Of a DNA stretch of 63,630 nucleotides, positions 25,786 to 49,694 are shown piece by piece (the stretch's first letter is position 1; each line of letters begins with the position of its first letter). The position numbers and the translations under genes are program-made. Origin of the DNA: Neopararhizobium haloflavum (GTDB lineage Bacteria; Pseudomonadota; Alphaproteobacteria; Rhizobiales; Rhizobiaceae). The stretch lies in NCBI RefSeq assembly GCF_002750855.1, contig NZ_NWUC01000012.1:1-63630 (forward strand). The letters are read 5' to 3'. A model generated the notes under the pieces. That model was not told the DNA's origin, did not search any database, and worked only from the letters and a program-made list of their open reading frames with translations.

Positions 25786-26670
25786 CTAAGCGGCCACCCT
25801 GCCCTCCTGCTGCTGATGCAGATAATCAGCGGCGGCCTGTGCCCGCGATGCGGCCCGGAAGATGGCCTTCTTGTCCTCTTTGAGACATTTCAGCCAGCTC
25901 GCCAGATACGATGCGCTCTCATCCCTAACGCTAACCGCAAGCGAAAGGTCGCTGCAAATAAAGCAGGCGGTAATTTCAGCGATTAATTCTTCGAACGCAT
26001 AGCCCTTGGTCTGCATATTGGTGCTGCTGATGCGATCGAGGCGACTTTTGCCACCTGTCCAGTGGGCCAACTCGTGGAAGAGCGTCCCATAGTACGCCTC
26101 GGGGCTGACAAAGGCCGCGAAGGGCGGCATCTGGATTTGGTCGGTTGCGGGAATGTAGCAAGCGCGATTTCCGCCGTGGCTGATCGCGGCTCGGGTATTG
26201 GTGGCAAAATCGTCAGCACGTTTGATGCGCTGTTCGACAGGGAGCGGCGTGTGTGCGGCGTAATGTTCGTCCGCTAGCCCGTCGATCTGGCTGAGATTGA
26301 AAACGGTGTAGCCCTTCACGTACGGAATTTCGCGGTCCTCGTCCTCGGCGGCCTCGCCCTTCTTGGTGATGGTGCCGTACTTGACGATGAGGGTTCCCCG
26401 CTCTCCCTTGCGGACCTGGCCGCCAAGTTCCTGCGCCTGCCGGTAGGTCATGAACCGCTCGTACTCAAACCCGTGTTCGGCTGTCGCCAGCCAGAGCAGA
26501 AGCACATTGATCCCGCGATATGGCTCGCCATTGGAGCGAAGTGGGCGGGGGAAATTGGAGCCGATATGGCTGGCATTCCAAGGCTTGACCCAGGGCCGTG
26601 TCCCAGCCTCAAGGGCCGAAACGATCGTGTTTGTAATGCGCTGATAGGTATCGATGCGTGTCTCGCTCAT
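25786..26670 (-). CDS. ArdC-like antirestriction protein with zincin metallopeptidase domain
   Basis: A 294-residue protein. The N-terminal half is the ArdC ssDNA-binding domain: DTYQRITNTIVSALEAGTRPW, then PWNA and NGEPYRGINVLLLWL. The C-terminal half is a zincin-like peptidase with the zinc motif FHELAHWTG (HExxH) and a downstream glutamate in FEELIAEITACF. ArdC proteins protect incoming plasmid DNA from restriction early in conjugation. ATG at 26670 has GGAGG upstream. The leader holds a covarying element. It lies between repC and the Fic module, an expected place for a 'leading region' gene. Confidence 0.9.
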   Translation of the reverse strand: MSETRIDTYQRITNTIVSALEAGTRPWVKPWNASHIGSNFPRPLRSNGEPYRGINVLLLWLATAEHGFEYERFMTYRQAQELGGQVRKGERGTLIVKYGTITKKGEAAEDEDREIPYVKGYTVFNLSQIDGLADEHYAAHTPLPVEQRIKRADDFATNTRAAISHGGNRACYIPATDQIQMPPFAAFVSPEAYYGTLFHELAHWTGGKSRLDRISSTNMQTKGYAFEELIAEITACFICSDLSLAVSVRDESASYLASWLKCLKEDKKAIFRAASRAQAAADYLHQQQEGRVAA

Positions 26671-26711
26671 GGTTGCCTCCTTGGCCTCGTCTTGCTGACG
26701 GAGGCTCGTGA

Positions 26712-26822
26712 GACGGGCCCTTGAGCTGCCCGCGCACCCGAAGGGCCGCAACGCAGTGAAGGGCATCGGCGGACGGAAAATTTGCTGCGCGAGGAAGGCC
26801 GAAGGCCGGGGAAATTTTTCGG
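26712..26822 (-). promoter_or_regulatory. Covarying leader element, copy B (upstream of ardC)
   Basis: Outer arms CGGAAAATTT (26774-26783) and AAATTTTTCGG (26812-26822) enclose GGCC-TTC-GGCC and CTCGCGC (minus strand). The second module (26720-26760, minus strand CCCTTCACTGCGTTGCGG then CCCTTCGGGTGC) lies nearer the gene. Same order and orientation as copies A and C. The remaining gap to repC (26823-27137) shows only a CGTTAC/GTAACG palindrome near 27121 and no gene. Confidence 0.6.
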
Positions 26823-27137: not shown

Positions 27138-28382
27138 TCAGTGGAAATTTCGATTTGCAAGGCCATAAAGTGTGCGGTCGAGATGAAGATTCCCGGAAAC
27201 TGTTCTGTCGATCATGGCCCGGAAATATCCGCCTGGACTGCTGAGGTCGCTGCCTTTGCGGTACGTCTTTTCCATAACGGTCGCAAGGATTGCGGCGGCC
27301 ACTGCCGGTCCGACCCGGCCTGTCGCATCTAGCCAACCCGCCTCACTTAGTCCGACCATGACGCGCATGACTTTTGCGCTGTCGATAACGTCGTTCCAAC
27401 TCCTGAAATCACGGCTTAAGGTGGACTGCGTTTCGCGTGTTGCAGCGCTTAGAAGCCCTAATGGCACCGGCTTTGGATCACTTGCCCGCTCAGCCCCTAC
27501 CGACATTGCCTCATCGGGTTGGGTACTCCGCCCTACCCTCTTCTCCTGCTTTATTTCCAAAGCAGAATCGGCGGCGTAGCCGACGTTCTTAGAAACGTCT
27601 CGCTCGTTAGAGCGAGTCCGCATCTGATTACTCTTACGATGATTTTCTGGGGTTGTATTAGTATAGGAGGTGACGCTGATGTCACCCTCGGGTGGCATTT
27701 CATGGTGACTATCATCGATCATGGCCAAGGTCTCGATGTAGAGATCTTCCAGCTTTTCAGCCTTAGCATGGATGTCTTCCGAGCTCTCAAGGACCGCATC
27801 GCGCAGCTCCAGCACCCGATCCGCTATCGTCTCGTCCAATAAGCCAATCGCATCCGCAATTGCGCGCGCTCGCCGCGTTACCGTTCTCTGGCTTTCTCGC
27901 CGCCGATCGAGGTCGGCTTTGAATGCGTCCGCACGAGCCTTTAGTTCTGCAAACCTTATTCTGGCCGGTGTGAAGTCCAGGCCATAGGCTGCCAAGGGTG
28001 CACCGTCTTCGCCACGATAGACATAGCGCCGGCCTGTCGGACTATCGCGGTAAGCGACAATGCCGGCCTCTACGAGCTTGCGAATGCACCTGATTACGGT
28101 TCTCTGAGACCGCATTGTGTATTCAGCGAGCTTTTGGTTCGAAATAGCGACTACCGGACGGGCTTCTCCAATCCAGTCTGACGACCTGGATAAGCCCAGA
28201 AGGATATCGAGAATTTGATAAGCTGTGCCATCAATACCCAAAACGGGCGCGGCTTTCTTCAATGTAATTGCCACCTCGGCTTTTGAAACATCCGGAGCAG
28301 CTTCGCTTTGTGCGAGCTTGGCGCTGGCGAGGATAGCAGGGGTGACTGCCCTAAAATTTGCCACTGAAGGGGTCGATTGCAT
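27138..28382 (-). CDS. repC: Replication initiator RepC, copy 1 (repABC operon)
   Basis: A 414-residue initiator of repABC plasmids; it binds the origin, which in this family lies inside repC itself. Family features: helix-turn-helix near residue 85-130 (ISNQKLAEYTMRSQRTVIRCI), YRDSPTGRRYVYR, FTPARIRFAELKARADAF, and the C-terminal block GGYFRAMIDRTVSGNLHLDRTLYGL. ATG at 28382 is chosen over the longer frame because it fits family length. It is separated from repB by 229 bases holding the counter-transcribed RNA. A second, divergent RepC is at 39695. Confidence 0.92.
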   Translation of the reverse strand: MQSTPSVANFRAVTPAILASAKLAQSEAAPDVSKAEVAITLKKAAPVLGIDGTAYQILDILLGLSRSSDWIGEARPVVAISNQKLAEYTMRSQRTVIRCIRKLVEAGIVAYRDSPTGRRYVYRGEDGAPLAAYGLDFTPARIRFAELKARADAFKADLDRRRESQRTVTRRARAIADAIGLLDETIADRVLELRDAVLESSEDIHAKAEKLEDLYIETLAMIDDSHHEMPPEGDISVTSYTNTTPENHRKSNQMRTRSNERDVSKNVGYAADSALEIKQEKRVGRSTQPDEAMSVGAERASDPKPVPLGLLSAATRETQSTLSRDFRSWNDVIDSAKVMRVMVGLSEAGWLDATGRVGPAVAAAILATVMEKTYRKGSDLSSPGGYFRAMIDRTVSGNLHLDRTLYGLANRNFH

Positions 28383-28521
28383 AAGCGAGCTCCATCCCGC
28401 TCGCGACAGCGGCAGGAAATTAGTGTCTGGGGATGGGCCTGCTTGAAATCGCGCGCACGAATTCACGCGCTGCCAGAAGGCAACGCTTGATTCGGAACGA
28501 AACTCGCCGTAGATTGAGGGT

Positions 28522-28605
28522 GCTTAGGGTCTAGACGAGTGCGAACTCTGAAGGCCAGGGATCTAAAGGGCTTGCCGATTGCCGTCGGTAAGCCCTTTCC
28601 TTATT
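28522..28605 (+). ncRNA. Counter-transcribed RNA (incompatibility RNA) of repC copy 1
   Basis: In repABC plasmids a small antisense RNA in the repB-repC gap limits repC expression. Here, on the strand opposite repC, TTGATT (28487-28492) and TAGATT (28510-28515) with a 17-base spacer precede a strong terminator ending near 28605, predicting an RNA of about 80 bases starting near 28522. Position, orientation and size all fit the family. Confidence 0.75.
28565..28605 (+). terminator. Terminator of the repC-1 counter-transcribed RNA
   Basis: Arms AAAGGGCTTGCCGA (28565-28578) and TCGGTAAGCCCTTT (28585-28598) pair over 14 positions with one G-T wobble, followed by CCTTATTTCTT on the plus strand. 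The wobble is G-U only in plus-strand RNA, in keeping with the direction. Confidence 0.8.
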
Positions 28606-28611
28606 TCTTAG

Positions 28612-29649
28612 TCATTGTCTTTCCTCCTCGAACTGAGCGATGATCTCCGCCATTCGGCCTTCAAGCCATTGGGCGAGGCCCGGTGACACCTTCTCGTCAA
28701 TTGTGATGTGCGTCTTGCCTTTTGCACGCCTCCAATCGATGCCCGGAGCAAGTTGGGTCGCCTCCGGTTTGCTAGGCTTATCCCGGCTCTCAAACATGCG
28801 TCTGGCAAGATCGAGACGCCGGTCACTGGCTGCGCGTTTCCACGCATCACTTTCAGCAAGCTGGGCAAAGAGCTTCTTTTGCGTTTCGTTCATTGCCGCG
28901 TTTCGGATTTGCTTTGCCAGTGCTTCCCACTTTGGTCGACCGCTATTGGTCGCGGGACCAATGGCTCTCACGAGCTCCTGCGGGAGAGCTGCTGCCAGCC
29001 CAGTTAGGATGGAGATATACGCCAGCCCTTTTTCATCCCCGCGCCCCAGCGATGCAGCTATTGTGGCCCGCTGAAACTTCTTTTCCTTGAGCGTTAAGGC
29101 GAACAGCGCTTGCTCAATGAAGGAAAGGTTGGCTCGTTCAGAGTTTTCCTTGCCTTGTGCAACGACTAGCTCGTCGTCAGACAAAGAACGCACGATCGCT
29201 TTGACCGGGCGACCCAGTCTTTTGGCCGCCTTCAGCCGGCGGTGTCCGTAGGCAACCTGATATCTGCCCGGCGTGGTGGGGGATGGCCGAACCAGTATGG
29301 CGACTTGTTGTCCGCTCTGGTTGATCGATTCTACGAAAGCATCGAATTCCGGATCGTTATCTACGGCAATGCGATCGCTCACGAATGACGGATCGATCTC
29401 ACCTGGATCGATGTCGACAACCTGTTCGGTGTCCAGAAGCTGCTGACGCAACTTATCATTTTCAGATTCGATTGCTGAAAAAGCGCCTTGCATCGAGCGC
29501 ACAGCGCCAGATGATACACGTTTTTCAGCTGGGGCAGGATTGGGGGTAGGGCGCGGCACCACATCATCAGATGCTTGCTGCGCCAGTGTTTGCGGGTCGA
29601 GCCCACCAAACATTGCCCTCATCTTCTTATTTCGATCTGCAGCGGTCAT
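28612..29649 (-). CDS. repB: Plasmid partition protein RepB (ParB family)
   Basis: A 345-residue centromere-binding protein. Family motifs: VDIDPGEIDPSFVSDRIA then QVAILVRPSPTTPGRYQVAYGHRR (ParB box II, CTP-binding GHRR), KENSERANLSFIEQA, and a helix-turn-helix with ATIAASLGRGDEKG. With RepA it segregates plasmid copies. The ATG at 29649 overlaps the repA stop by four bases. Confidence 0.93.
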   Translation of the reverse strand: MTAADRNKKMRAMFGGLDPQTLAQQASDDVVPRPTPNPAPAEKRVSSGAVRSMQGAFSAIESENDKLRQQLLDTEQVVDIDPGEIDPSFVSDRIAVDNDPEFDAFVESINQSGQQVAILVRPSPTTPGRYQVAYGHRRLKAAKRLGRPVKAIVRSLSDDELVVAQGKENSERANLSFIEQALFALTLKEKKFQRATIAASLGRGDEKGLAYISILTGLAAALPQELVRAIGPATNSGRPKWEALAKQIRNAAMNETQKKLFAQLAESDAWKRAASDRRLDLARRMFESRDKPSKPEATQLAPGIDWRRAKGKTHITIDEKVSPGLAQWLEGRMAEIIAQFEEERQ

Positions 29650-30866
29650 TTGCGCCCCCAAACAGCTTCAATGTGAGCTAAAATTTCGGCGTTTACTGCG
29701 TCGACAGACTCGAGAGCACGGTTAAGCGTGTCTCTGACGACGCTGCCTCGGTCCATTTCGTACAAGGTCTTCTTTTCCAGCCCCGCACTGGCAATTGCGG
29801 TCGTTTCGACAACAGCGGCCGTCAAAACGTCGGTTGTGAACATTGAGCGCAGCAAGGCGGCGACATTGACCTGGGGCACATCGTGAGGATTGTGGCGCGT
29901 CATCACATAACGGATGAAATCGTGCTCTAGCGACCCGCCCGCATCTTCAATGACGCTCAGTATATCGCTCGTCATAGCCAAAAATTGGTTCATGCTTGCA
30001 ACATCAAGCATGGCCGGGTGTACCGTAATGAGCAGTCCAGTAGCCGCAAAGATCGCGCCAAGTGTGAGATATCCGAGCTGCGGAGGCGCATCGATGAGAA
30101 CCACGTCATAACGGTCTTCAACTTCGGCCAGTACCGTTTTGACCCGCCTGAAAAACATGCCATCGCCGCGCGCGCGCCCAGCTGCAATTGCTTGGGGGGT
30201 CTCGTGCTCATACTCCATGAGTTCGAGGTTGCCCGGGACAATGTCGATTCCATCAAAATACGTTTGGCGGATTACGTCAGATAGGGCGCGTCGCTCTTCG
30301 TCTTCGTATCTGATTGCTGCATAGAGCGTCTGGTTCGGATTGACGTCAAATTCGGGCTGGTAACCGAACATCGTCGAGAGAGATGCTTGGGGATCTAGGT
30401 CAATGACCAATACCCGAAGACCTTTCAGCGCAAGGTAGTGCGCCAGATGCACGGTCGTCGTGGTCTTTGCCGAGCCACCCTTGAAATTGGCAACCGCAAG
30501 CACTTGAAGCTTATCGCCCGCGGTTCTTCTCGGATTAAAGCGCTTAGCCTCGGACGGGCGTTTTGCTGCAAGATGCTGCCGCAACTTGTTGATCTGCGCG
30601 AGTGTGTATACTCTACGCCCGTTATCCTTGCGATCGGGGATGGCACCTTCGCCATCAATTGACATCTGGCGAAGGGTGGATTCAGCTATGCCCAACAGCG
30701 TCGCGACTTCGCGTGACGTGAAAGTTTTAAGCGACTTCATCGCTTCCGGTGGATACATCTGCTGCCGGAGGCTCTGTAGCTGTGCACTTAAAAGCTCAGA
30801 ATGCCGTCGTATTTTTTCGGATGACGATCCAGAGTTCGACAGATTATGCTGCTCTAATGCCGACAT
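29646..30866 (-). CDS. repA: Plasmid partition ATPase RepA (ParA family)
   Basis: A 406-residue Walker-type ATPase. An N-terminal DNA-binding part (FTSREVATLLGIAESTLRQM) is followed by the deviant Walker A FKGGSAKTTTTVHLA, VLVIDLDPQASLS and VVLIDAPPQLGYL. It drives segregation and represses the repABC operon. The start at 30866 gives the family length; the upstream frame to 31109 is not conserved-looking. Confidence 0.94.
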   Translation of the reverse strand: MSALEQHNLSNSGSSSEKIRRHSELLSAQLQSLRQQMYPPEAMKSLKTFTSREVATLLGIAESTLRQMSIDGEGAIPDRKDNGRRVYTLAQINKLRQHLAAKRPSEAKRFNPRRTAGDKLQVLAVANFKGGSAKTTTTVHLAHYLALKGLRVLVIDLDPQASLSTMFGYQPEFDVNPNQTLYAAIRYEDEERRALSDVIRQTYFDGIDIVPGNLELMEYEHETPQAIAAGRARGDGMFFRRVKTVLAEVEDRYDVVLIDAPPQLGYLTLGAIFAATGLLITVHPAMLDVASMNQFLAMTSDILSVIEDAGGSLEHDFIRYVMTRHNPHDVPQVNVAALLRSMFTTDVLTAAVVETTAIASAGLEKKTLYEMDRGSVVRDTLNRALESVDAVNAEILAHIEAVWGRK

Positions 30867-30954
30867 TTCGCCCCGACGGAAATTTGCTATCAATCGCTCA
30901 AAAAGCGTCGGAAGCACCTTTGCCCGATTCAGTATGAGCGTCAATAAGTTTTGA

Positions 30955-30971
30955 GTTAACGGGAAGTTAAC
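30955..30971. promoter_or_regulatory. GTTAAC dyad upstream of repA (possible parS-like or operator site)
   Basis: Two GTTAAC hexamers five bases apart form a symmetric 17-base site 89 bases before repA. The repABC centromere parS is usually described as GTT-N4-GC-N4-AAC; this site has GTT...AAC ends but one extra base and no central GC, so it may instead be an operator for RepA. Confidence 0.35.
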
Positions 30972-31011
30972 AGTCGCCGTCACGTACCGCCCATTTGAGG
31001 CGGCCATCCTG

Positions 31012-31221
31012 TCAGCCGGTTTCGCTGATCTTGGTGTTGTCGTTGTCGGCCTTGCCGCTGAATTTAACGTCATAGCCGAAGGTGATCGAGACAAAGGGCG
31101 GGATTCCAACAGTGATCCCGATACGTAGGCGACCCTCGTGGGTAGCCTTGCCGAGCAGCCGCTTAAGGTAATCCGAGACGCGTCGACCAGTGCGGCGCAA
31201 GTAGGTGATGATCTGTTTCAT
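31012..31221 (-). CDS. Small unknown protein upstream of repA
   Basis: A 69-residue protein beginning MKQIITYLRRTGRRVSDYLKR, with a basic N-terminal helix and a short hydrophobic stretch (IGITVGIPPFVSITFGY), ending in a polar tail. ATG at 31221 has GGAGG at a good distance. Its leader contains a CCC-GCAA-GGGG hairpin (31328-31342, minus strand). No family recognised; possibly membrane-associated. Confidence 0.55.
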   Translation of the reverse strand: MKQIITYLRRTGRRVSDYLKRLLGKATHEGRLRIGITVGIPPFVSITFGYDVKFSGKADNDNTKISETG

Positions 31222-31626
31222 AGCAGTCCTCCAAATGATGGTTTCGCTTGGTGCGAAGCAGGGCCACGCGCTGAACGGGCCGAAACTGCACCGCGTAGCG
31301 GTCGAAATGGAGCGCAGCAGAATGGAGAACCCCTTGCGGGTTGCTGTATCGGACTAAGCGCGTAGCTTGGCGAAGCAGACCATGCGCAAAACCATTATTG
31401 GACTGCGGAGAAACCGATTAGCACCGGTGATAAGCAACGTCGCGTTTTGGATTTGCGGCTGATCGGCAAGGCGGGGGAGGGCACATTGCGAATGGCGAGA
31501 CAGATCCCGCCCGATCGTTGGAATGGCGTTGATGTGAGCCAGGCCGATGACTTGCCTTATGCGACCGGCTGACAGGATCGTCGTCGCAAAGCGACGGCAT
31601 TTTTTCATGCGGGGGAAGGGGAGCGC

Positions 31627-31653
31627 GAGGGGAGGGGCTTTGGGGCTCCCCTC
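31627..31653. repeat. G-rich hairpin repeat, copy 1
   Basis: GAGGGGAG and CTCCCCTC form an 8-bp stem around a G-rich loop; 26 of 27 bases are shared with 34642-34668. Upstream G-runs (31611-31640) could form a quadruplex on the plus strand. The gap 31222-31730 has no other clear feature except the GCAA-loop hairpin at 31328-31342. Confidence 0.6.
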
Positions 31654-31970: not shown

Positions 31971-32798
31971 CTAAATTAATTCGAGCTGGGTGGCGGGAAA
32001 GGCGCTGTGAACCGGCAATGGCTTTGCAGCCAGGCGGGCACATTCCGCCTCTCGCCGCTCGCGGGCGGCGGCGAAGTCAAAACATGCGATTTCGCAGATG
32101 ATTGACGTATCTTTCCAGTCGTCGCGGAAAAGCGCGGTATCGACCCCGGCCCCGGCGTCCATTTCCAGCCCGGTCTTTTGCTCGAACTCGTATCCTCGCC
32201 CGCTCGCGCGTCGTTCAAAGCAATGGGAGCCAGAATATTTGAACGTCGCGGACTGCTGGGGAATGATGAATGCGCCATGGTCGGCAAGCTCGGCGGCAAT
32301 ATCGATTATGTGAAATTCAAACTCAGGGCCACGATAGCGGGGCCCGTTGGCGCTGCGGCGCACACGGCCAAATGGCGGATTGCCTATGGCATGATCGAAG
32401 CGGCCTAGATCAAGCTCGCGCCAATCGAACACATCGGCATTGATCCAACGGGCCTCCGGCAAGAGCTTGCGCCCGACCTCGACATAGCGAGGGTTTTGTT
32501 CAACGCAGGTAATATCGGCAACTTGGGTGCCCCAACGGCTTCGATGATGAACGAAATAGCTCAAGATGCCGATGCCCGCGCAAAGGTCGATGATGCGGCC
32601 TGAACCGGCATCGAGGGCGAAATCTGCGGCAAGGCCCCAAGGTGTGAAAAACGCGCCCGCTGCGCCGTTGATGTGGTTCGCGCCTTCGTGCCAGTTCTGG
32701 AAAACGAAATCGCGTTCGTCCTCGGTCAGCCGGTCCTTGGTCAAGATCGCCTCGGCTTCGGCATGGGCTTTGCGCTGTGCTTTTGTGAGTTTTGCCAC
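31971..32798 (-). CDS. Orphan class I DNA/RNA N-methyltransferase
   Basis: A 275-residue protein with an S-adenosylmethionine fold: IIDLCAGIGILSYF (SAM-binding motif I), ITCVEQNPRYVEVG (motif II), and HAIGNPPFGRV, the NPPF catalytic motif of N6-adenine and related methyltransferases. No restriction enzyme is next to it. Orphan methyltransferases are typical of conjugative plasmids, where they modify plasmid DNA against host restriction. The start is GTG at 32798. It is preceded by the long structured leader at 32810-33073. Confidence 0.85.
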   Translation of the reverse strand: MAKLTKAQRKAHAEAEAILTKDRLTEDERDFVFQNWHEGANHINGAAGAFFTPWGLAADFALDAGSGRIIDLCAGIGILSYFVHHRSRWGTQVADITCVEQNPRYVEVGRKLLPEARWINADVFDWRELDLGRFDHAIGNPPFGRVRRSANGPRYRGPEFEFHIIDIAAELADHGAFIIPQQSATFKYSGSHCFERRASGRGYEFEQKTGLEMDAGAGVDTALFRDDWKDTSIICEIACFDFAAARERREAECARLAAKPLPVHSAFPATQLELI

Positions 32799-32809: not shown

Positions 32810-33073
32810 CTTTTTCCGTTCCCGCGAAGCGGCTCTGTCCCGCAAGGGGCAGGGGCTTCCGCTCCTGCTCCCGAGCAATCGGCGAACCGATCAGGGGAGA
32901 GGGGGGCAGGCTTCAAAAGGGCAGGGGGGACCACCCACGCGCAGCGCGCCCAAGAGCGGATCCGCGACAGCTAATCCGCGCCTGGGCGTCCTGCACCGAA
33001 CGAGTAGTGAGGGAAGGATGGGGGATGCCCGATTGGGGCTTGCTGGGGAGAGGGGGCAGCGCCCTCTTTCCCC
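32810..33073. repeat. Long structured leader repeat R1 (upstream of the methyltransferase)
   Basis: This 264-base block matches 37241-37533 through most of its length, with shared segments CCCGCGAAGCGG, CCGCAAGGGGCAGG, GCTCCTGCTCCCGAGCAATC and CCACCCACGCGCAGCGCGCC. Pairings kept despite changes: GCGGAT/ATCCGC (32956-32961, 32974-32979; GTGGAT/ATCCAC in the other copy), a long-range arm pair 32905-32923 with 33026-33044, and a terminal hairpin 33045-33073. Wobble pairs are consistent with a plus-strand RNA, opposite to the gene. Confidence 0.7.
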
Positions 33074-33093
33074 ACGGAAAATGGGAGTGGTCG

Positions 33094-33363
33094 CTAGCGA
33101 CCTCTATTTTTGTCGGGGTATTGACCCAGCTCGATCATCAGCAAGGCGCGACGGATGGCCTGATCTGTATCGAGGTTGGCTTGTGCCCCCTTCATCCGCG
33201 CAAGGGCGAGGTTGAGTAGGGCAAGCTCGACCTCGTTGGGATGCCAGCCCTTGCCAATGGCCTCGTCTGCGAGGGCGGTAAACGCTGGCTCAAGCGCAAA
33301 TTCACAATCGAGCGTTCTATCGGGATGGTCGGGGCCAGTGATTGGACCTTTGATCCCGACCAC
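33094..33363 (-). CDS. Small unknown plasmid protein
   Basis: An 89-residue helical protein. GTG at 33363 is taken as start because it falls directly after the stop of the membrane-protein gene. Core: CEFALEPAFTALADEAIGKG, WHPNEVELALLNLALARM; the C-terminus is charged. The helical, charged composition is protein-like, but no family is recognised. It is the last gene before the R1 leader. Confidence 0.6.
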   Translation of the reverse strand: MVGIKGPITGPDHPDRTLDCEFALEPAFTALADEAIGKGWHPNEVELALLNLALARMKGAQANLDTDQAIRRALLMIELGQYPDKNRGR

Positions 33364-33365
33364 GA

Positions 33366-33848
33366 TCAGAACTCGGTGCGATTGATATAGACCGTACGAT
33401 TTTGCTCGACCGATCCGGCCCGCGACCGGCTCCCGCCGCCTCCCGGGACACCGCCAAACACGGCAATAATGGCGAGCAATGCAAGTGCCCCGCTGAAATG
33501 CCATGCAATGGCTATTTGAAGCGCCGAGCCGAGTACGGCCCAGGTCCATTTGGTGTTGGTGAAATTGCGCCAGATGATGGCCAGGGCGAGGGCACCGGCA
33601 ACGGCGACCAGCCCATAGCCATAATTTTCATTCTGGCCCGATTGCGCGGCGGCGCTCTGCCACCACCAGCCGCCCCACCAGAACACGGACGCGACGGCCA
33701 TGGTGCCGACAACGCCGAAGCTCAGGAAGGGTTTACCGGCCTTCTTTTCGAGCCAGCCGTCGATGAAGAACAAGGCAATGAGGCCCACCACCAGCACGGC
33801 AATACCGGTGGCGATCGTCACCATGATATTTCCGAGCGAGTCTAGCAT
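33366..33848 (-). CDS. Multi-pass membrane protein, unknown
   Basis: A 160-residue protein with four or five hydrophobic segments (IMVTIATGIAVLVVGLIALF; FGVVGTMAVASVFWWGGWWW; LVAVAGALALAIIW; a pair near residues 100-135) and a basic C-terminus. ATG at 33848 has AAAGGAGG upstream. It lies 18 bases after vapC, perhaps co-transcribed with it. No family recognised. Confidence 0.65.
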   Translation of the reverse strand: MLDSLGNIMVTIATGIAVLVVGLIALFFIDGWLEKKAGKPFLSFGVVGTMAVASVFWWGGWWWQSAAAQSGQNENYGYGLVAVAGALALAIIWRNFTNTKWTWAVLGSALQIAIAWHFSGALALLAIIAVFGGVPGGGGSRSRAGSVEQNRTVYINRTEF

Positions 33849-33866
33849 TGGGCCTCCTTTTGGCTG

Positions 33867-34301
33867 TCACCAGCCTAGATCAGTATGGGTAAAGTCCTCA
33901 CCCTTGTACGCGATTTTAGTCCGATATGCTCTGGCGCAGGCATAGGCGAAACAATCACCCATGTTCAAACTGGCCGGGTGGTTGACGATCTTGCCGAACT
34001 GCTGTGCAGCGTCGAGCGCCTTGCTCGCCACATCGGCGGTAATCATGGTGTCCTTGGCCTCAAGGTCGAGGATGAATTGATCGACCATGGCCCGCGCGCG
34101 GGCCAGCATTTCCTTGGTAGCTGGTTTGTCCTTGCCCGCCAATCTGCGGGTTATCGACAATGCCGCTTCCACTCTCACCACTGGCGAGACGTATAGCTGG
34201 CGGTTGTCGGCAATGGCTGTTTCAAGCCGCGCCATCAACTCGTCGGCGTCTGTTTCATTGGTCAATATGGCGACGATGACCGACGCATCTACGAAAAGCA
34301 T
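33867..34301 (-). CDS. vapC: VapC-type PIN-domain toxin
   Basis: A 144-residue PIN-domain ribonuclease. Acidic active-site residues are in place: MLFVDASVIVAIL (first Asp), VRVEAALSI (Glu), and LNMGDCFAYACAR (Asp of GDCFAYA). VapC toxins cut tRNA or rRNA. The ATG overlaps the vapB stop by one base (TGATG). A plasmid-addiction role is expected. Confidence 0.9.
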   Translation of the reverse strand: MLFVDASVIVAILTNETDADELMARLETAIADNRQLYVSPVVRVEAALSITRRLAGKDKPATKEMLARARAMVDQFILDLEAKDTMITADVASKALDAAQQFGKIVNHPASLNMGDCFAYACARAYRTKIAYKGEDFTHTDLGW

Positions 34302-34540
34302 CAATCCTCGCCCCACATTTCATCGGTTTCGGCCTTGTGATCGCCGGGCGCGAACGGACCGGCCTCGCGGGCCATGGCGAGGGACTTAGCCAACCTATCG
34401 CGGATCGGCAGATTCCGCCTATGATTGGCAATCTCGTGTTTGAGCGCGGCTTTTACGGCCTCGACTTTAGACGTTCTGGTCAGGCCGATCAGCTCTTCGG
34501 CCAGCTTGTCGACCTCAGGGTCTTTGATATAGAGCGGCAT
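34301..34540 (-). CDS. vapB: VapB-type antitoxin
   Basis: A 79-residue antitoxin. The N-terminal half is a short strand and two helices (LYIKDPEVDKLAEELIGLT) as in ribbon-helix-helix VapB proteins; the tail with FAPGDHKAETDEMWGED is the flexible toxin-binding region. The start at 34540 gives the family length. It directly precedes and overlaps vapC. Confidence 0.85.
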   Translation of the reverse strand: MPLYIKDPEVDKLAEELIGLTRTSKVEAVKAALKHEIANHRRNLPIRDRLAKSLAMAREAGPFAPGDHKAETDEMWGED

Positions 34541-34641
34541 CGGTGCATATCCTTTTTCGGATATTAATATATCCTCGATTTCATATCCACGCAATGCAAG
34601 TCGCCCCGCAAGCAAAAGCCAGCGAGGCGGGAGGGGAGTTT

Positions 34642-34668
34642 GAGGGGAGGGGCCTTGGGGCTCCCCTC
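34642..34668. repeat. G-rich hairpin repeat, copy 2
   Basis: Same 27-base motif as 31627-31653 (26 of 27 identical), an 8-bp stem GAGGGGAG/CTCCCCTC. It lies between the relE/parE stop and the vapB start on the minus strand. Both copies sit between operons, so they may stabilise or end messages, though no T-run follows. Confidence 0.6.
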
Positions 34669-34691
34669 AATGGCAGCGACGATTAGGGTAC

Positions 34692-34982
34692 TTACTCACC
34701 ACTACGGGAACGGGCGGCTTTATAGACTTCACTGCGCTCTCGCCGCCCTATCGCGACCAGCGTTACGGTCACGGTCTGATCTTCCACCCGATAGACAAGC
34801 CGATAACCCGCGCTGCGCAGCTTGATTTTGTAATGATCGTCCATGCCGTGCAGTGCATCGGCCGGCACGCGTGGGTTTGTCAGGCGTTCTGCCAGTTTCT
34901 TGCGCATTTGCTCGCGGATCGTCGCGCCGAGTTTTTTCCACTCTTTGAGAGCGGATGGCAGAAACTGTAGTTCAAAGCTCAT
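34692..34982 (-). CDS. RelE/ParE-family toxin
   Basis: A 96-residue toxin starting MSFELQFLPSALKEWKKLG. Features of RelE: basic helix RKKLAERL, then HYKIKLRSAGYRLVYRVEDQ and a C-terminal strand VTLVAIGRRERSEVYK. Length and RLVYRV motif fit mRNA-cutting RelE more than gyrase-targeting ParE, but this is not certain. It overlaps the antitoxin gene by eleven bases. Confidence 0.9.
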   Translation of the reverse strand: MSFELQFLPSALKEWKKLGATIREQMRKKLAERLTNPRVPADALHGMDDHYKIKLRSAGYRLVYRVEDQTVTVTLVAIGRRERSEVYKAARSRSGE

Positions 34983-35217
34983 CGAGATTGACGCGAACAG
35001 GCGTTTCGTCGGCGCGCTCTTTGGCTATCCTGACCAGATCGAGGTCATCGAGCCGTTCAATCATGGCTTCGTAAATCTCGGCTGGGACCATATAGGCCAT
35101 GACGCGGTTATGATTAAGGACAGCCACGGCTTCGCCGTGGGCCTGATCGAGAACGCCAGAGGGACTTTTCTTAAGCTCCGAGACGCTTACCGCCACCTGG
35201 GCCTCTACGCGCTGCAT
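34972..35217 (-). CDS. Phd/YefM-family antitoxin
   Basis: An 81-residue antitoxin. The N-terminus (VSVSELKKSPSGVLDQAHGEAV, in two parts) and AVLNHNRVMAYMVPAEIYEAM match the Phd/YefM DNA-binding fold. The C-terminal part wraps the toxin in this family. ATG at 35217 is preferred; a short A/T-rich palindromic stretch with TATTAGGTACTATAT around 35240-35256 may be its operator. Confidence 0.88.
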   Translation of the reverse strand: MQRVEAQVAVSVSELKKSPSGVLDQAHGEAVAVLNHNRVMAYMVPAEIYEAMIERLDDLDLVRIAKERADETPVRVNLDEL

Positions 35218-35325
35218 GTTCGATACTCCATTAGGTGCCGTATTAGGTACTATATTTCGCACACAATATCAAGTGGGAAGCCGGTCGCGCCGGAGAGAGA
35301 CTGGCGCGACCGGCGACGGCTGGAA

Positions 35326-37224
35326 TTAATCAGCCGCGACGGGGAACTGGTGGATTTCGGCGCTTTCGTTGTCCTCGGCCTCTGGTGCGGTTACCCGAAT
35401 GGGGGCGGGGAGCCAGCCGGACTCCTTGACCGCTTTATGGGCATAGTCGACCGCTTCGGGCTTCTTCATCGCGGCAATGCCATCAGCGAAGTCAGACCCG
35501 CGCACCTCGGCAACTGCGGCTTGGATCGAAGTGCGATTGAGGTGCATGAAATAGCTGCCCCCGGTCGTCTCGAACCAATCGCGCATATCGACGTTGAGCG
35601 CCTTGCCGATCTGATTGGCGTGGGCAACGCCTTTCGTGCGGCCATGGAATTTTGGCTCCATCGCATTGAGGCTATGGGACGCGGCAAAGGCCAGAAGGCT
35701 AAGAAGCTGCTCACGGTGCTGATCGAGGCACCATTCCCAAAGGTCTGCCGGGTTGCCCGGAATCTGGTGTCCGAACGTTTCCTGCAGCTCGGCAAAGGCG
35801 ATTGCGGCCTTATTGTTTTCCGGCTGTTTCATAGCCCCTTCGTGGCGCTCGTAGGTGAGCGAGATTTGAAGGGCGGAATGCTCGCTGGCATGACGAAAAA
35901 CACTACCCAGCAAAAGAGCATGAACCACGGCGGCCAGAGCAATATCGGGATTGTCGGCAAGCTCGACGCGGAGCGCGGCTGTCTTTTGTGCGATCAAATC
36001 CTCGATCAGCGTGGCAGAGTGTTTTAGAACGATAGGCGCGGGGCCGCTGGCTTCTTCTCCCTCGACTTCGGTGGTGGAGCTGGGGTTCGTGGTCGCGGTG
36101 TCCTCCCGGCGTACCAAACCCCTTTCCACGGTCGCGCGGCCATAATAGTCGATAAAGACCATTGCGCCGGACGTGGCGAGGTTATCAGCGCTGAACGCTT
36201 CCTGCTTGTTCTGCAAGGCATCCATTTCCGCCTGAACCGCTTCAAGGCGCGGCTCTGCATTTTCGTCAGCCGCATCAGCCTCGATCAATTCGGCAAGGCT
36301 GTCGTGTTCTTCCGAAAGCTGGTCCAAACGGGCCTGATCGGCTTCGGGAAGGGGGGTCTGGTCGGGATAGACTCGGCCAAAACTGAAAATGTCGTCTGGC
36401 CGCTCGGTGTGGACCTCTACCCATTTCCAGCCCTCGGCCCTGACCGGATCGGCATGGGCTTCGAGTTTTGCCAAGACCAGTTTATCAACCAGCCCGGAAT
36501 CGGTCGCGTAGCCACCATCTTCGGGGTCGAACAGGTCACGTCGCACGGAGCCGCCAGCCGCCTCGTAGGCGTCCAGCCCGCCAATGAACTGCACCCGCTT
36601 ATCGTTGGCTGGGACTTCTTCACTGGCCAGCATCCGCTTGATGGTGTTGGCGTGGCGGCTATAGGTGGGCAGGCTTTCCCACACTTCGACCTGACGGGCA
36701 TGGTCATCGGTGATGGTGAAAGCGGTTAGCTGCTCAAAGCTGATTTCATTGCCACGATAGAGCGCGAAAATTTCCGGAGCCACGCGGGCAAGAGCCAAGC
36801 GGCGGTTGACGATCAATTCAGACACGCCGAACCGTTCCGCGATGTGGCTGGGGGTTTGACCAGCCTCGGCCAGCGTCAAAAATGCTTCGAACTCGTCGGC
36901 CCGGTGCATGGTTTCGCGCATGACGTTTTCGGCAAGGCTGATTTCGGTGGCGTCCTCGGCGGCGCGTTCCTTGCACTCGATAGGCAGGTCTTTGGCGATC
37001 TTGCCGGTTTCGGCCAGATGCTGAAAAGCCTTGAGGCGGCGACCGCCAGCGGTGACATAGAACCGGCCCTTTTTGTCGCCCGTCCGCACGATGATATTTT
37101 GCAACTGGCCTTTGGCCAGAAGGGATGCGGCAAGCTGCTCCACGCCTTCGGCGCTATAGGTTTTGCGCACGTTCTTGGGGTCGGCATCGAGCTTGTTTAA
37201 GGGGATGAATTTGCTCTCGGTCAT
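35326..37224 (-). CDS. Large ParB/Srx-domain protein
   Basis: A 632-residue protein with an N-terminal ParB-like nuclease/CTP-binding domain: FIPLNKLDADPKNVRKTY, then IVRTGDKKGRFYVTAGGRRLKA (ParB box II as GGRR), EISLAENVMRETMHRADEFEAF and a helix-turn-helix SHIAERFGVSELIVNRRLAL. The C-terminal 400 residues have acidic coiled stretches and a conserved-looking block near MRDWFETTGGSYF. Such long ParB-like proteins are typical of alphaproteobacterial plasmids and ICEs; they are not the RepB partition protein, and their function is open. The 5' region is the R2 leader. Confidence 0.85.
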   Translation of the reverse strand: MTESKFIPLNKLDADPKNVRKTYSAEGVEQLAASLLAKGQLQNIIVRTGDKKGRFYVTAGGRRLKAFQHLAETGKIAKDLPIECKERAAEDATEISLAENVMRETMHRADEFEAFLTLAEAGQTPSHIAERFGVSELIVNRRLALARVAPEIFALYRGNEISFEQLTAFTITDDHARQVEVWESLPTYSRHANTIKRMLASEEVPANDKRVQFIGGLDAYEAAGGSVRRDLFDPEDGGYATDSGLVDKLVLAKLEAHADPVRAEGWKWVEVHTERPDDIFSFGRVYPDQTPLPEADQARLDQLSEEHDSLAELIEADAADENAEPRLEAVQAEMDALQNKQEAFSADNLATSGAMVFIDYYGRATVERGLVRREDTATTNPSSTTEVEGEEASGPAPIVLKHSATLIEDLIAQKTAALRVELADNPDIALAAVVHALLLGSVFRHASEHSALQISLTYERHEGAMKQPENNKAAIAFAELQETFGHQIPGNPADLWEWCLDQHREQLLSLLAFAASHSLNAMEPKFHGRTKGVAHANQIGKALNVDMRDWFETTGGSYFMHLNRTSIQAAVAEVRGSDFADGIAAMKKPEAVDYAHKAVKESGWLPAPIRVTAPEAEDNESAEIHQFPVAAD

Positions 37225-37240
37225 GGGTTTTCTCTCCTGT

Positions 37241-37533
37241 TTTTCCCGTTTCCCGCGAAGCGGTTTTCCTGCCCGCAAGGGGCAGGAGCCCGCTCCTGCT
37301 CCCGAGCAATCGGCGATCCGATCGGGGGAGAGGGGGGCAAGCCAAAATCGGGGAGGGGGGACCACCCACGCGCAGCGCGCCCGGGCCGTGGATCCGCGAA
37401 GCAAATCCACGTCCTGGGCGTCCTGCACCGAACGGAACTGACGTCGGCAGCGCCGGCGGCATGGAGAGAGGGAAGGATGGGGGATACGCGATTTTGGCTT
37501 GCTGGGGAGAGGGGGTCAGCGCCCTCTTTCCCC
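37241..37533. repeat. Long structured leader repeat R2 (upstream of the large ParB-like gene)
   Basis: Counterpart of R1 with a 30-base insertion. Key pairings: CCTGCCC-GCAA-GGGGCAGG (around 37268-37286), GTGGAT/ATCCAC (37388-37393, 37405-37410), a 14-bp perfect long-range pair GCAAGCCAAAATCG (37337-37350) with 37489-37502, and a final hairpin 37504-37533. No open frame is convincing here. It fills the gap between the ParB-like gene and the tandem winged-helix gene. Confidence 0.7.
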
Positions 37534-37586
37534 GCCAGACAAGCAAAGTACGCGCGGCACGCGCGTTCTATCCGATAGACTGATTT

Positions 37587-41859: not shown

Positions 41860-42858
41860 ATGGCCATAGACAGGGGCGCGGAATCCCTCAGGAGGTTGGT
41901 CAACAACCTCAAATCATCGCTCGGTGAAACGATCGTTGCGGCTTTGCAAGATCCCACCGTTGTCGAAGTCATGCTCAATCCGAACGGCAATCTTTTCATC
42001 GAGCGCATTGGCAAGGGCATCGAGCTTGCCGGCCATATGAGCGCCGAGGACGCCGAAATCGTCATCGGCAAGGTTGCTCACGCACTCAAAACCGAAGTCA
42101 CGCCCGAACGCCCGATTATCTCGGGTGAGCTTCCGCCCGACGGCAATCGGTTCGAAGGCATACTTCCTCCGGCCGCGCCATCCCCGGTTTTCAATATCCG
42201 CAAGCGGGCCTCGATGCTGATCCGGCTCGACCAATATGTGAGCGACGGGATCATGACAGACCGGCAGGTCCAGGTGATCCGCGAGGCGATAGCCCAGCGG
42301 CTCAACATCGTCGTTTCTGGCGGCACGGGGACGGGCAAAACGACGCTGACCAACGCCATTTTGGCGGAGTTGGTAGAAGTTGCACCCGACCATCGGCTCG
42401 TGATCCTTGAGGACACGGCCGAGATTCAATGTTCGGCGGAAAACCACGTATCTCTGCACACAACCGATGCGGTCGACATGGGCCGCCTTTTGAAATCGAC
42501 GATGCGTCTGCGTCCAGATCGTATCATCGTGGGCGAGGTTCGCGACGGCGCGGCCCTGACGCTCTTGAAGGCGTGGAACACCGGCCATCCGGGCGGCGTG
42601 ACAACCGTTCACTCCAATTCGGCTTTCGCCGCGCTGACGCGCCTCGAGCAGCTTGTTGCGGAAGTGTCCACGCAACCGATGCCCGAAGTCATTGGTGAGG
42701 CGGTCGACTTGATCGTGTCTATCGAGCGCGCCCCGAAAGGCCGCGTGGTTCGGGAAATCCTACGGGTCGATGGGTTCCGCGATGGAGCCTACAGAACCGA
42801 GAAAATTGGCAATTCTCAATCCTCCGACAGCATGCAGGGAAAGCTCCATGTCGCGTAA
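41860..42858 (+). CDS. trbB: Conjugation ATPase TrbB (VirB11 family)
   Basis: A 332-residue hexameric traffic ATPase at the cytoplasmic base of the mating channel. Motifs: Walker [17 protein letters not shown] near residue 150, Asp box [12 protein letters not shown], Walker B-like [13 protein letters not shown] and the His box [13 protein letters not shown]. It opens the trbBCDEJKLFGHI operon, whose gene order is that of Ti and RP4 systems. The ribosome site GGGGAAGGGG lies a little far upstream. Confidence 0.95.
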
Positions 42859-43216
42859 AATCCTTTCGGTAACGCTCGGCCTCGCCGCAGCGTCTCTTTT
42901 CATGATCGACCCAGCACTTGCCGGTGGTGGCGGTGGCGGCGGCTTGCCGTGGGAGGCGCCGCTTCAACAAATTCAGCAATCCATTACCGGGCCAGTCGCG
43001 GGCGCGATTGCCTTGGCAGCCGTGGCTATTGCAGGCGGTATGCTGATCTTTGGCGGCGAGCTGAACGATTTCGCGCGTCGCCTGATGTACGTCGTTCTGG
43101 TCGCCGGCATCCTGCTCGGCGCAACGCAGATCGTCGGTCTCTTCGGTGCTGGTGGGGCGTCTATTGGCGTGCCGCAGAGTGCCGGCATCGAAACTGTGGT
43201 TCCAGCGGATGGCTGA
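42848..43216 (+). CDS. trbC: Pilin TrbC
   Basis: A 122-residue propilin. A signal peptide ([22 protein letters not shown]) is followed by a glycine run and two hydrophobic helices ([35 protein letters not shown]), the standard VirB2/TrbC design. TraF is the expected maturation peptidase. ATG at 42848 overlaps the trbB end by eleven bases. Confidence 0.92.
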
Positions 43217-43508
43217 GGTTGGCGACAACCTTGAACGGGCGCGGATACACCGCGCCCTTTCCCGCCCGACGCTTCTGTTCGGCGCGGATCGCGAGCTGGT
43301 GCTGTTCACCGGCTTGCTGGCAGTGATCCTCGTATTTGTGGTGCTGACGCTGGTTTCTGCCGTGCTGGGGGCGGTCCTGTGGATCGTTATCGTCGGCATT
43401 TTGCGCATGATGGCCAAAGCCGATCCGCTGCTACGCCACGTCTATGTGCGGCACATCAAGTACCGGTCCTTTTACCGGCCAACTTCGACACCCTGGCGGA
43501 AATACTGA
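43209..43508 (+). CDS. trbD: Mating channel protein TrbD (VirB3 family)
   Basis: A 99-residue inner-membrane protein with two adjacent hydrophobic segments ([38 protein letters not shown]) and the motif [17 protein letters not shown], typical of TrbD/VirB3. Overlaps the trbC end by eight bases. Confidence 0.9.
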
Positions 43509-43510
43509 AC

Positions 43511-45949
43511 ATGGTTGCGCTCAAGAAATTTCGGCACTCGGGGCCGTCATTCTCCGATCTTTTGCCTTATGCTGCCTTGGTAGAGAACGGCATTATGCTG
43601 CTCAAGGACGGCTCGCTCATGGCGGGCTGGTATTTTGCTGGCCCCGACAGCGAAAGCTCCACCGATTTTGAGCGCAACGAGGTGTCGCGCCAGATCAACA
43701 CAATCCTCGCCCGCCTTGGTTCTGGCTGGATGATCCAGGTCGAGGCAGTTCGGGTTCCGACCACATCGTACCCGACGCGCGAGCAATGCCACTTTCCCGA
43801 CCCTGTGTCGGCGCTTATCGATGATGAGCGCCGCAAGAGGTTTGAGCGCGCTGACGGTCACTATGAGAGCCAACACGCGATTGTCCTGACCTATCGCGAG
43901 CCGGAACAGCGCAAATCGGGGCTGGTTAAATACGTCTATTCGGACGCGGACTCCCGGCGCGAAACGAACGCTGACCGCATCCTCTCCAAGTTCAAGACCG
44001 CCATCCGCGAATTTGAACAGTACCTGGCCAATGTCGTTCAGGTGCGGCGCATGGTAACGCACGAGGTCGAGGAACGCGGCGGCTACAGGGTCGCCAAGTA
44101 TGACGACCTGCTGCAATTCGCCCGCTTCTGTATCGTGGGCGAGAACCATCCGGTTCGGCTCCCCGATATCCCGATGTATCTCGACTATATCGCGACGGCC
44201 GAGTTTCATCACGGCCTCTCGCCTCTGGTCGACAACCGTTATGTCGGTGTCGTCGCCATTGACGGATTTCCGGCCGAAAGCTGGCCCGGCATCCTCAATT
44301 CACTCGATCTGATGCCGCTGACCTATCGCTGGTCCAGCCGCTTCATGTTCCTCGATCCCGTCGAGGCGCGGCAAAAGCTCGAGCGGACCCGCAAAAAGTG
44401 GATTCAGAAGGTTCGGCCTTTCATGGATCAGCTTTTCCAGACCAATTCCGGCGCCATCGATCAGGATGCGGCGCTGATGGTGGCTGAAAGCGAAGACGCC
44501 ATTGCGGCGGCGAACTCCCAGCTTGTCGCCTATGGCTACTACACACCGGTCATCATCATTTTTGAGACCGATGATGCCCGCCTTCGCGAAAAGTGCGAAG
44601 GGGTGCGCCGTCTGATCCAGGCCGAAGGCTTTTCAGCGCGGATCGAAACGCTCAATTCGACCGAAGCCTTTCTCGGGAGCCTTCCGGGGAACTGGTACGC
44701 CAATATCCGCGAACCGCTGATCCATACGCGCAACCTGGCCGATCTGGTGCCCCTCAATTCTGTTTGGTCGGGCGAGACGGAATGTCCATGCCCGTTTTAT
44801 CCAGCCGGCTCACCGCCGCTCATGCAGGTGGCCTCCGGGTCCACCCCGTTTCGCCTTAACCTCCATGTGGGGGACGTTGGCCATACGCTGATCTTTGGGC
44901 CGACCGGTTCGGGTAAATCGACGCTTCTCGCGCTGATCGCGGCACAATTCCGCCGCTATGAAAACGCGCAGATATTTGCCTTCGACAAGGGCAAGTCGAT
45001 GTATCCGCTCACGGTCGCGGTTGGTGGCGATCACTACGATGTGGGATCGACCGACACGCTCGCCTTCGCGCCGCTGTCCGAACTGGATACGGATGGCGAT
45101 AAGGCATGGGCCTCTGAGTGGATCGAAACCCTGATTACGATGCAGGGGGTCAAGGTCGATCCCGATCATCGCAACGCGATCAGTCGTCAAATCGACCTCA
45201 TGGCCGCTTCGGACCATCGGTCGTTGTCCGACTTCGTGTCGGGTGTGCAGAAGCGCGACATCAAGGACGCGCTGCAACACTACACGGTCGACGGGCCGAT
45301 GGGCGCGCTGCTCGATGCGGAACGCGACGGCCTCAAGCTGTCCTCGTTTCAGACATTCGAGATCGAAGAACTCATGAATATGGGCGAGCGCAATCTTGTG
45401 CCGGTGCTGCTCTACCTGTTTCGTCGCATTGAAAAGCGGCTGACGGGCGAGCCCAGCCTTATCATTCTCGATGAGGCGTGGCTGATGCTCGGCCATCCAG
45501 CATTCCGTGACAAAATCCGCGAATGGCTCAAGGTGCTGCGCAAGGCCAACTGTGCCGTGATCCTTGCCACGCAGTCGATTTCCGACGCTACGGGTTCGGG
45601 GATCATCGACGTTCTAAAGGAAAGCTGCCCGACAAAAATCTGCCTGCCCAACGGGGCGGCACGGGAATCCGGTACGCGCGAATTTTACGAGCGCATCGGG
45701 TTCAACGAGCGGCAGATCGAGATCGTCGCGACGGCCACGCCAAAGCGCGAATATTATGTCGCTTCGCCCGATGGGCGGCGGCTGTTCGACATGGCCCTTG
45801 GGCCGATCACCCTGTCTTTCGTAGGTGCGTCCGGCAAGGACGATATCAAGCGGATCAACGATCTGCGCCACGCCTACGGCGACGACTGGACCACCCATTG
45901 GCTTGAATCGAGAGGAGTCGAAGATGCGACACAACGCCTTGCTTCGTAG
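43511..45949 (+). CDS. trbE: Conjugation ATPase TrbE (VirB4 family)
   Basis: An 812-residue ATPase that energises pilus assembly. The N-terminal CagE/TrbE domain (about 1-400) is followed by the motor with Walker A FGPTGSGKSTLLAL near residue 463 and Walker B PSLIILDEAWLML, then ATQSISDATGSG. The start is the ATG at 43511 three bases after trbD; the frame is open further upstream but lies inside trbD. Confidence 0.95.
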   Translation: MVALKKFRHSGPSFSDLLPYAALVENGIMLLKDGSLMAGWYFAGPDSESSTDFERNEVSRQINTILARLGSGWMIQVEAVRVPTTSYPTREQCHFPDPVSALIDDERRKRFERADGHYESQHAIVLTYREPEQRKSGLVKYVYSDADSRRETNADRILSKFKTAIREFEQYLANVVQVRRMVTHEVEERGGYRVAKYDDLLQFARFCIVGENHPVRLPDIPMYLDYIATAEFHHGLSPLVDNRYVGVVAIDGFPAESWPGILNSLDLMPLTYRWSSRFMFLDPVEARQKLERTRKKWIQKVRPFMDQLFQTNSGAIDQDAALMVAESEDAIAAANSQLVAYGYYTPVIIIFETDDARLREKCEGVRRLIQAEGFSARIETLNSTEAFLGSLPGNWYANIREPLIHTRNLADLVPLNSVWSGETECPCPFYPAGSPPLMQVASGSTPFRLNLHVGDVGHTLIFGPTGSGKSTLLALIAAQFRRYENAQIFAFDKGKSMYPLTVAVGGDHYDVGSTDTLAFAPLSELDTDGDKAWASEWIETLITMQGVKVDPDHRNAISRQIDLMAASDHRSLSDFVSGVQKRDIKDALQHYTVDGPMGALLDAERDGLKLSSFQTFEIEELMNMGERNLVPVLLYLFRRIEKRLTGEPSLIILDEAWLMLGHPAFRDKIREWLKVLRKANCAVILATQSISDATGSGIIDVLKESCPTKICLPNGAARESGTREFYERIGFNERQIEIVATATPKREYYVASPDGRRLFDMALGPITLSFVGASGKDDIKRINDLRHAYGDDWTTHWLESRGVEDATQRLAS

Positions 45950-46709: not shown

Positions 46710-46711
46710 TG

Positions 46712-46972
46712 ATGCCGTCCATTTCGCTTCCCATCGTTCTCGCAATAGCGCTCGCCTCGGCGGTAGTCGGCGGAGCGATCACCTATGTGGTCGTGCCCAA
46801 TGATGATCCCGCTGCGCGAGAGCTTTTGGCGCGACAGGTCGAATTGCTTGAACAGGAAGCGGCCGCTCGCGAAGCGGCGTCGCAACGTCGCCAGGACTTC
46901 TTTGGGTCCAACTCCGACAATTTCCCGACTTCGGGCGGCCAGGAAATGGCCCCTCGCTTCGACACGAACTGA
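46712..46972 (+). CDS. trbK: TrbK-position protein (putative entry exclusion)
   Basis: An 86-residue single-pass membrane protein: an N-terminal helix (LPIVLAIALASAVVGGAITYVVV), a charged coiled segment (RELLARQVELLEQEAAAREA) and the tail PTSGGQEMAPRFDTN. It lies between trbJ and trbL where Ti and RP4 plasmids have the entry-exclusion lipoprotein TrbK, but here no lipobox cysteine exists. The tail, preceded by RRQDFFGS, closely repeats the TrbJ tail (RRDSFFDS...SGGQEMEPRW). Function by position only. Confidence 0.75.
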   Translation: MPSISLPIVLAIALASAVVGGAITYVVVPNDDPAARELLARQVELLEQEAAAREAASQRRQDFFGSNSDNFPTSGGQEMAPRFDTN

Positions 46973-46982
46973 GGGGCATGTG

Positions 46983-48152: not shown

Positions 48153-48181
48153 TTGTCCGCGTCAGCATCGAGGCATAGCGC

Positions 48182-48844: not shown

Positions 48845-48867
48845 TCCCATCGCTCGCGGAGAGAGTA

Positions 48868-49692: not shown

Positions 49693-49694
49693 TC

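Follow-up and report, generated by a model that had tools for sequence, protein, structure and literature searches.

The window analysed here, the whole 63,630-nucleotide (nt) stretch of Neopararhizobium haloflavum contig NZ_NWUC01000012.1, is by gene content a conjugative repABC plasmid (contig C3 of the assembly), and since its two ends (1-77 and 63554-63630) are identical over 77 bases it is most likely a closed circle. It holds two copies of a structured non-coding element whose folding strand is the plus strand, and this element is our subject. Copy A (32811-33074; nhmmer 178 bits) lies upstream of a minus-strand methyltransferase gene (31971-32798; PF05175, 5.2e-05; phrog_3820 DNA methyltransferase, 1.1e-93), and copy B (37241-37534; nhmmer 191 bits) lies upstream of a minus-strand gene for a large ParB-like protein (35326-37224), a homologue of the ParB-like protein in the leading region of plasmid F. 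The two blocks, 32811-33073 and 37241-37533, are each roughly 290 bases or less, lie 4.4 kb apart and are 79% identical, as expected from the original prediction, which had described two diverged copies upstream of unrelated genes; a repeat finder splits them into families D1 (93-nt) and D3 (51-nt).

The fold contains a long-range helix, Px, followed by a terminal hairpin, T, both read on the plus strand. In copy B the 5' arm of Px (37337-37350, GCAAGCCAAAATCG) is perfectly complementary to its 3' arm (37489-37502, CGATTTTGGCTTGC), while in copy A the arms lie at 32905-32923 and 33026-33043, and a duplex alignment gave 3 G·T pairs and 2 mismatches over 16 positions, in agreement with the 17 of 19 paired positions claimed originally. 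Hairpin T spans 33044-33074 in copy A (GGGGAGAG/CTTTCCCC, with frequent G·T) and 37503-37534 in copy B, and copy B has a central hairpin, CGTGGAT..ATCCACG, at 37387-37411. Both the terminal hairpin and the pairing GTGGAT/ATCCAC against GCGGAT/ATCCGC were present as predicted. A further predicted stem, around a GCAA tetraloop, is weaker: the loop varies among homologues (38 of 44 copies compared), so the tetraloop is not conserved, and in the homologue alignment a competing hairpin, GGCAGGAG..CTCCTGC, is kept better. Closely spaced G runs on what is identified below as the transferred strand, for example at 37323-37363, could form G-quadruplexes that compete with the helices.

Px is preserved through compensatory changes. 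We scored each 5' arm against its own 3' arm or the arms of other copies in the 31 of 44 non-redundant copies that could be anchored, with 300 shuffles for reference; because the copies are related by descent, the resulting numbers are not probabilities. Cognate Px arms scored 27.3 against a non-cognate mean of 18.9 (highest of 300 shuffles, 21.0), and cognate T arms scored 22.3 against 19.6 (highest of 300 shuffles, 21.0). For a consensus fold, 45 copies were reduced to 37 by removing near-identical ones, and three poorly aligned copies were then dropped. Among the remaining 34 non-redundant copies, the Px columns 117/262, 118/261, 126/253 and 127/252 showed three or four Watson-Crick types per pair, and the consensus folding score was -135.8 on the plus strand and -120.1 on the minus strand. 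The earlier claims of a real structured element, and of stems kept by compensatory change, are both supported.

The strand that folds can be read from the non-Watson-Crick pairs of the same 31 copies. On the plus strand, cognate arms held 11 G·T and 2 A·C pairs in Px, and 54 and 4 in T; with swapped arms the numbers were 21.9 G·T and 18.6 A·C in Px, and 57.5 and 14.4 in T. For neither helix did any of the 300 shuffles give an A·C count as low as the cognate one. A·C is thus removed from both helices and G·T is partly removed from Px (11 vs 21.9) and hardly from T, and since A·C is purged and G·T largely tolerated on the plus strand, it is the strand antisense to the genes that folds. A composition-corrected test of G·T against A·C on duplex alignments gave p 0.008 for Px and p 0.001 for T. 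The statement that all wobbles are G-U only on the plus strand holds as a strong tendency, but not absolutely (65 G·T vs 6 A·C over the two helices). In 43 of 44 copies the element strand also folded more stably than the other strand; the mean difference was 6.9 kcal/mol, where dinucleotide shuffles gave 4.3, and the stability excess over shuffles was negative in 35 of 44 copies (p 2e-6).

Folding energy of the two window copies cannot decide the strand, because both of their strands fold. As RNA, the plus strand gave z-scores of -4.1 (copy B) and -3.8 (copy A) and the minus strand -4.0 and -3.0; as DNA, the plus strand of copy B (37241-37537) gave -4.4 and the minus strand -3.5 (copy B) and -1.1 (copy A). 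On either strand copy B folded significantly; copy A was marginal as DNA and did better as RNA. A cis-acting leader of the minus-strand mRNA, such as an attenuator or a riboswitch-like 5' untranslated region (UTR), would draw on this folding of the minus strand and on the position of the copies upstream of the start codons of several gene families, whichever way the copies face with respect to the origin of transfer (oriT) and with the X-class copies described below included. Read on the minus strand, however, the helices would tolerate C·A and purge G·U (a contrast that is weaker on a column alignment), and this strand is the less stable one in all but one of the 44 copies. We consider such a leader distinctly unlikely, in keeping with the earlier remark that the structure is not just a 5' UTR.

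The genes headed by the element are of establishment type: they encode ParB-like proteins, methyltransferases, ArdC, DUF3846 proteins (psiB in some records) and DUF932 proteins, besides an open reading frame (ORF) that we call the X ORF. In many copies the start codon (TCAT) falls within the first alignment columns, and the element therefore usually begins within about 30 bases of it; an exception, copy L014:25132, lies about 100 bases before the nearest annotated gene (a hypothetical protein, then a methyltransferase). A plus-strand structured RNA antisense to the genes, the reading preferred in the original prediction, might be a non-coding RNA (ncRNA) about 270 nt long or might regulate the gene start in antisense. 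It would agree with the folding strand and with the plus-strand RNA z-scores, and would accommodate the X-class copies, since it is indifferent to which strand is transferred; copy A is also followed, after 15 bases, by a plus-strand terminator-like hairpin with a T-run (33089-33102). Yet at least five unrelated gene families have their start codon where the conserved block begins, so that no conserved ncRNA promoter is expected upstream, and terminator-like sites follow the element in 2 of 44 copies (copy A being one) compared with 1.2 in mononucleotide shuffles, none being listed after copy B on the plus strand. Nor does the element belong to an Rfam family: the whole window had 0 matches at gathering score, and at a permissive threshold (six sources) the only match was to sX7, over copy B (24.6 bits, cut-off 55; E 1.2). 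An antisense RNA therefore appears unlikely to us.

A candidate oriT lies on the plus strand at 11422-11452, where an inverted repeat, ACGTCGC..GCGACGT, is followed by TATAAGCGCG/CATT. The gene for a TraA-type relaxase (MobA_MobL domain; 7300-11352) is on the minus strand, opposite to the elements, and traC, traD and traG are on the plus strand. The strand that reads inverted repeat and then nick is the transferred strand (T-strand). By analogy with RSF1010 and pTi, we take the nick to lie near 11447/11448 and the plus strand to be the T-strand; the relaxase and oriT literature that was searched gave no nick sequence for the candidate motif.

A sequence-only model of the element, R1, found 35 copies on 14 whole plasmid records (W numbers), which were chosen from sequence matches, so all have a copy by choice, and of which seven had supplied sequences to the model. 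An RSF1010/pTi-like nick core after an inverted repeat, just upstream of the MobA_MobL relaxase gene and on the opposite strand, was present in six plasmids (the window, W04, W06, W08, W10 and W11; found by pattern in the window and W11, and by eye in the other four). An RP4-like TATCCTG/CC core lay upstream of a PF03432 relaxase gene, again on the opposite strand, in W02, W03, W05, W09, W12 and W14, looser matches elsewhere in W03 and W14 being set aside, and W01 had no convincing RP4-like core. Classed by the ORF that follows, the 35 copies comprised 26 ordinary ones, eight X-class ones and one unclassified (W02:15393). All ordinary copies were on the strand opposite the relaxase gene (24/24 in 12 plasmids with a relaxase match, window included) and on the transferred strand (22/22 in 11 plasmids with a recognisable nick site, nic, window included). 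The element is real and widespread, folds on one strand and lies on the transferred strand. Of the two ideas in the original prediction, the better fit is that of a single strand folded during transfer, since by nic orientation the T-strand is the plus strand; a stand-alone ncRNA is less supported.

The X-class copies (W03:30471, W05:26705, W09:38591, W12:27229, W14:152682, W01:166928, W07:86892 and W13:138787) and the ordinary copies of a given plasmid occupy opposite strands, as is again the case in W07 and W13, which lack a relaxase match. The X ORF behind them is small, about 90-115 amino acids (truncated in W01), and, where annotation was available, has a resolvase or the VirB end nearby. 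It had no Pfam match among four members, no PADLOC match for the one member searched, and one weak PHROG match among three members.

The features of the ordinary copies resemble those of plasmid F. There, Frpo1 and Frpo2 lie about 5 kb apart and are required for early expression, according to the accessible text of PMC9849209, from which we take the names; their assignment to F coordinates is our own. Of the two F repeat copies, Frpo2 precedes ssb, which is followed by the ParB-like gene, and Frpo1 precedes the DUF932 gene, from which it is separated by a single small ORF. Both systems have non-coding, folded T-strand sites in two diverged copies a few kilobases apart, in front of leading-region genes whose transcription runs toward oriT, and in both the T-strand is the more stable (Frpo, -98.7 vs -90.9 and -103.4 vs -92.9). 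The genes behind the sites are homologous as well, the ParB-like protein matching its F counterpart at 31% over 636 columns (E 4e-70) and the DUF932 protein at 44% over 268 columns (E 8e-78), although the window methyltransferase has no similarity to the F methylase. ColIb-P9 offers a further likeness, since its ssi/Frpo-like sites, and the Frpo' candidates of Samuel et al. 2024, are likewise repeated in the leading region, on the T-strand and upstream of anti-defence genes, as the available part of PMC11541004 describes.

Judging from sequence comparisons, we propose that the element is probably an Frpo-like single-stranded-DNA promoter of alphaproteobacterial conjugative plasmids, one not related to Frpo in sequence. 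The leading region would enter the recipient as single-stranded DNA, and its plus strand would fold into helices P1, Px and T. RNA synthesis would start at the folded T-strand template and proceed leftwards into the gene for the methyltransferase or ParB-like protein, which begins only a few bases further on, so that establishment genes could be made before a second strand exists, as with Frpo of plasmid F. The geometry, with the plus strand folded, the template on its 5' side and RNA running leftwards, fits such an Frpo-like start. Folding would presumably take place in vivo, the folded strand would be used by RNA polymerase rather than by a primase or a plasmid protein, and the promoter would be switched off once double-stranded. 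A single-strand initiation site (ssi), which would prime second-strand synthesis in the recipient and involve no promoter, would equally exploit placement on the T-strand and folding, and Frpo itself is linked to both transcription and priming in the title of Masai and Arai (1997). A priming site, however, needs neither to stand at start codons nor to be repeated gene by gene, as the copies are, and we hold this alternative to be, if anything, less likely than an antisense RNA.

Several observations weigh against a single-stranded promoter on the T-strand. In all 5 plasmids with a nic the X-class copies are off the transferred strand, and in all 6 with a relaxase match they are on the relaxase strand; the weaker, unclassified copy W02:15393 is likewise on the relaxase strand, which is not the transferred one. 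The X-class contradicts a pure T-strand rule. T-strand orientation is moreover tied to gene orientation and is not independent of it, because neighbouring genes in the window array mostly share one orientation. As DNA, the plus strand of copy A (32811-33077) reached a z-score of only -1.5, with 16 of 200 shuffles equally good. Applied directly to the MAFFT columns, the composition-corrected comparison of G·T with A·C gave weak results, with p-values of 0.02 (Px), 0.14 (T) and 0.12 (P1), a weakness that we attribute in part to alignment slips. Model R1 had 0 matches at E<=10 in the F leading region, and a sigma-70 scan of the window gave 3 promoter-like matches compared with 2.1 in shuffles, none of them in the element, with boxes of the E. 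coli type where alphaproteobacterial ones may be looser.

The element also differs from Frpo in being a GC-rich multi-helix fold without recognisable -35/-10 boxes of the E. coli type, where Frpo is one long hairpin, in occurring in Alphaproteobacteria with MOBQ- or MOBP-type relaxases, where F has a MOBF one, and in having X-class copies on the other strand. The STAXI motif (Weinberg et al. 2010; PMC2864571, in its available part) is likewise structured, near SSB and antirestriction genes and considered for a function as single-stranded DNA, but it consists of tandem pseudoknots, and the window had no Rfam match at gathering scores.

Similar DNA was found on 96 of 72,556 plasmid records with copy B as query and on 38 of 72,556 with copy A, mostly from Sinorhizobium. 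When genomes of the order were sampled with model R1, at least 5 of 397 matched at E<=1e-4, counting that of the window itself; this rate is a lower bound because nine candidates were scored per listed genome. In a sample anchored on the ParB-like protein (the best 80 loci), 25 of 80 loci had copies of the element (type I), with 35 matches at E<=0.01, none of which shares the strand of ParB; a single additional weak match, over a stretch already matched, does lie on that strand (35/36 consistent). Among the loci without a clear match, several that were inspected by eye (Roseibium/Labrenzia, Bradyrhizobium and Sphingobium) retain core words such as GGAGGGGnATCnCCC, CTGCACAAG and GGGGAgACC. The Bradyrhizobium barranii chromosome (L088) has weak element-like matches at 9740-9854 and 13113-13284, one of them upstream of ParB, perhaps in an integrative conjugative element.

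Of 41 ParB-anchored loci without a clear match that were inspected by eye, 14 had another large structured leader of different sequence, type III, upstream of ParB (L026, L028-L032, L037, L041-L044, L046, L056 and L065). Type III is highly conserved, and the 10 of 14 members that were aligned share invariant CGCGCTTGCCCATTGG and CCTATCGTAAGAGCGG as well as CTTGCC and CTATCG, 19 nt apart on the 3' arm of the outer stem. In member L029 the z-score was -5.4 on the strand antisense to ParB and -3.4 on the other. That CTTGCC..CTATCG sits where Frpo-like boxes would have to be is suggestive only.

Elsewhere in the window, repABC (27138-31109) is on the minus strand and a VirB/Trb-type secretion system lies within 41860-51534 on the plus strand. 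The minus-strand array with the element-headed genes also holds an ArdC anti-restriction gene (25786-26766), which in the window has no element copy in front, and a Fic/BID-domain protein (VbhT-like) at 24064-25449; Fic and VbhA-antitoxin genes recurrently adjoin elements in several of the other plasmids. A further repeat pair of 43 nt (31611-31653 and 34626-34668; 86%) has a G-rich hairpin, GAGGGGAG..CTCCCCTC, and one of its copies is 11 bases from the start of an antitoxin-like ORF (34301-34615). The inverted repeats of the element, together with the position of copies on the lagging template relative to repC in several plasmids, would be compatible with a double-stranded binding site for a plasmid regulator (a ParB-like protein, for instance) or with a feature of the lagging-strand template in vegetative replication, but tolerance of G·T on one strand is unexpected for a duplex site, and we judge this very improbable. 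A lagging-template rule, derived from where repC lies and taking the origin to be inside repC, failed for both copies of W06 and for one or more copies in each of W10, W13, W07 and W01.

Work on single-stranded promoters has covered few plasmids, F and ColIb-P9 (PMC11541004, available part), and such promoters have so far been sought by similarity to few sequences; here the approach was through structure and strand logic. Samuel et al. 2024 (PMC11541004) used BLAST with five known Frpo/ssi sequences, plus candidates with -35/-10 motifs from four islands, and a 2026 plasmid host-range study (PMC12826799) used those five sequences and the 13 putative ones of Samuel et al., as far as the accessible portions of both papers state; the terms Agrobacterium and Alphaproteobacteria are absent from the main text of Samuel et al. 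in its accessible form. Within the literature collection that we searched, no paper, judged mostly by title, describes Frpo-like elements in rhizobia. Together, the likeness to F suggests that rhizobial plasmids may have their own counterpart of its single-stranded promoters. A wider reading, which we regard as doubtful, is that of a large, sequence-diverse alphaproteobacterial superfamily in which a folded GC-rich single strand would start transcription without visible sigma-70 boxes, T-strand copies serving recipient genes and X-class copies on the retained strand serving a donor gene while transiently single-stranded. If the element is indeed a single-stranded promoter, expression from incoming single-stranded DNA would be widespread or would have arisen more than once, the element would flag genes for establishment and anti-defence on plasmids from bacteria of soil and plants, and early gene expression in such plasmids would become directly testable.

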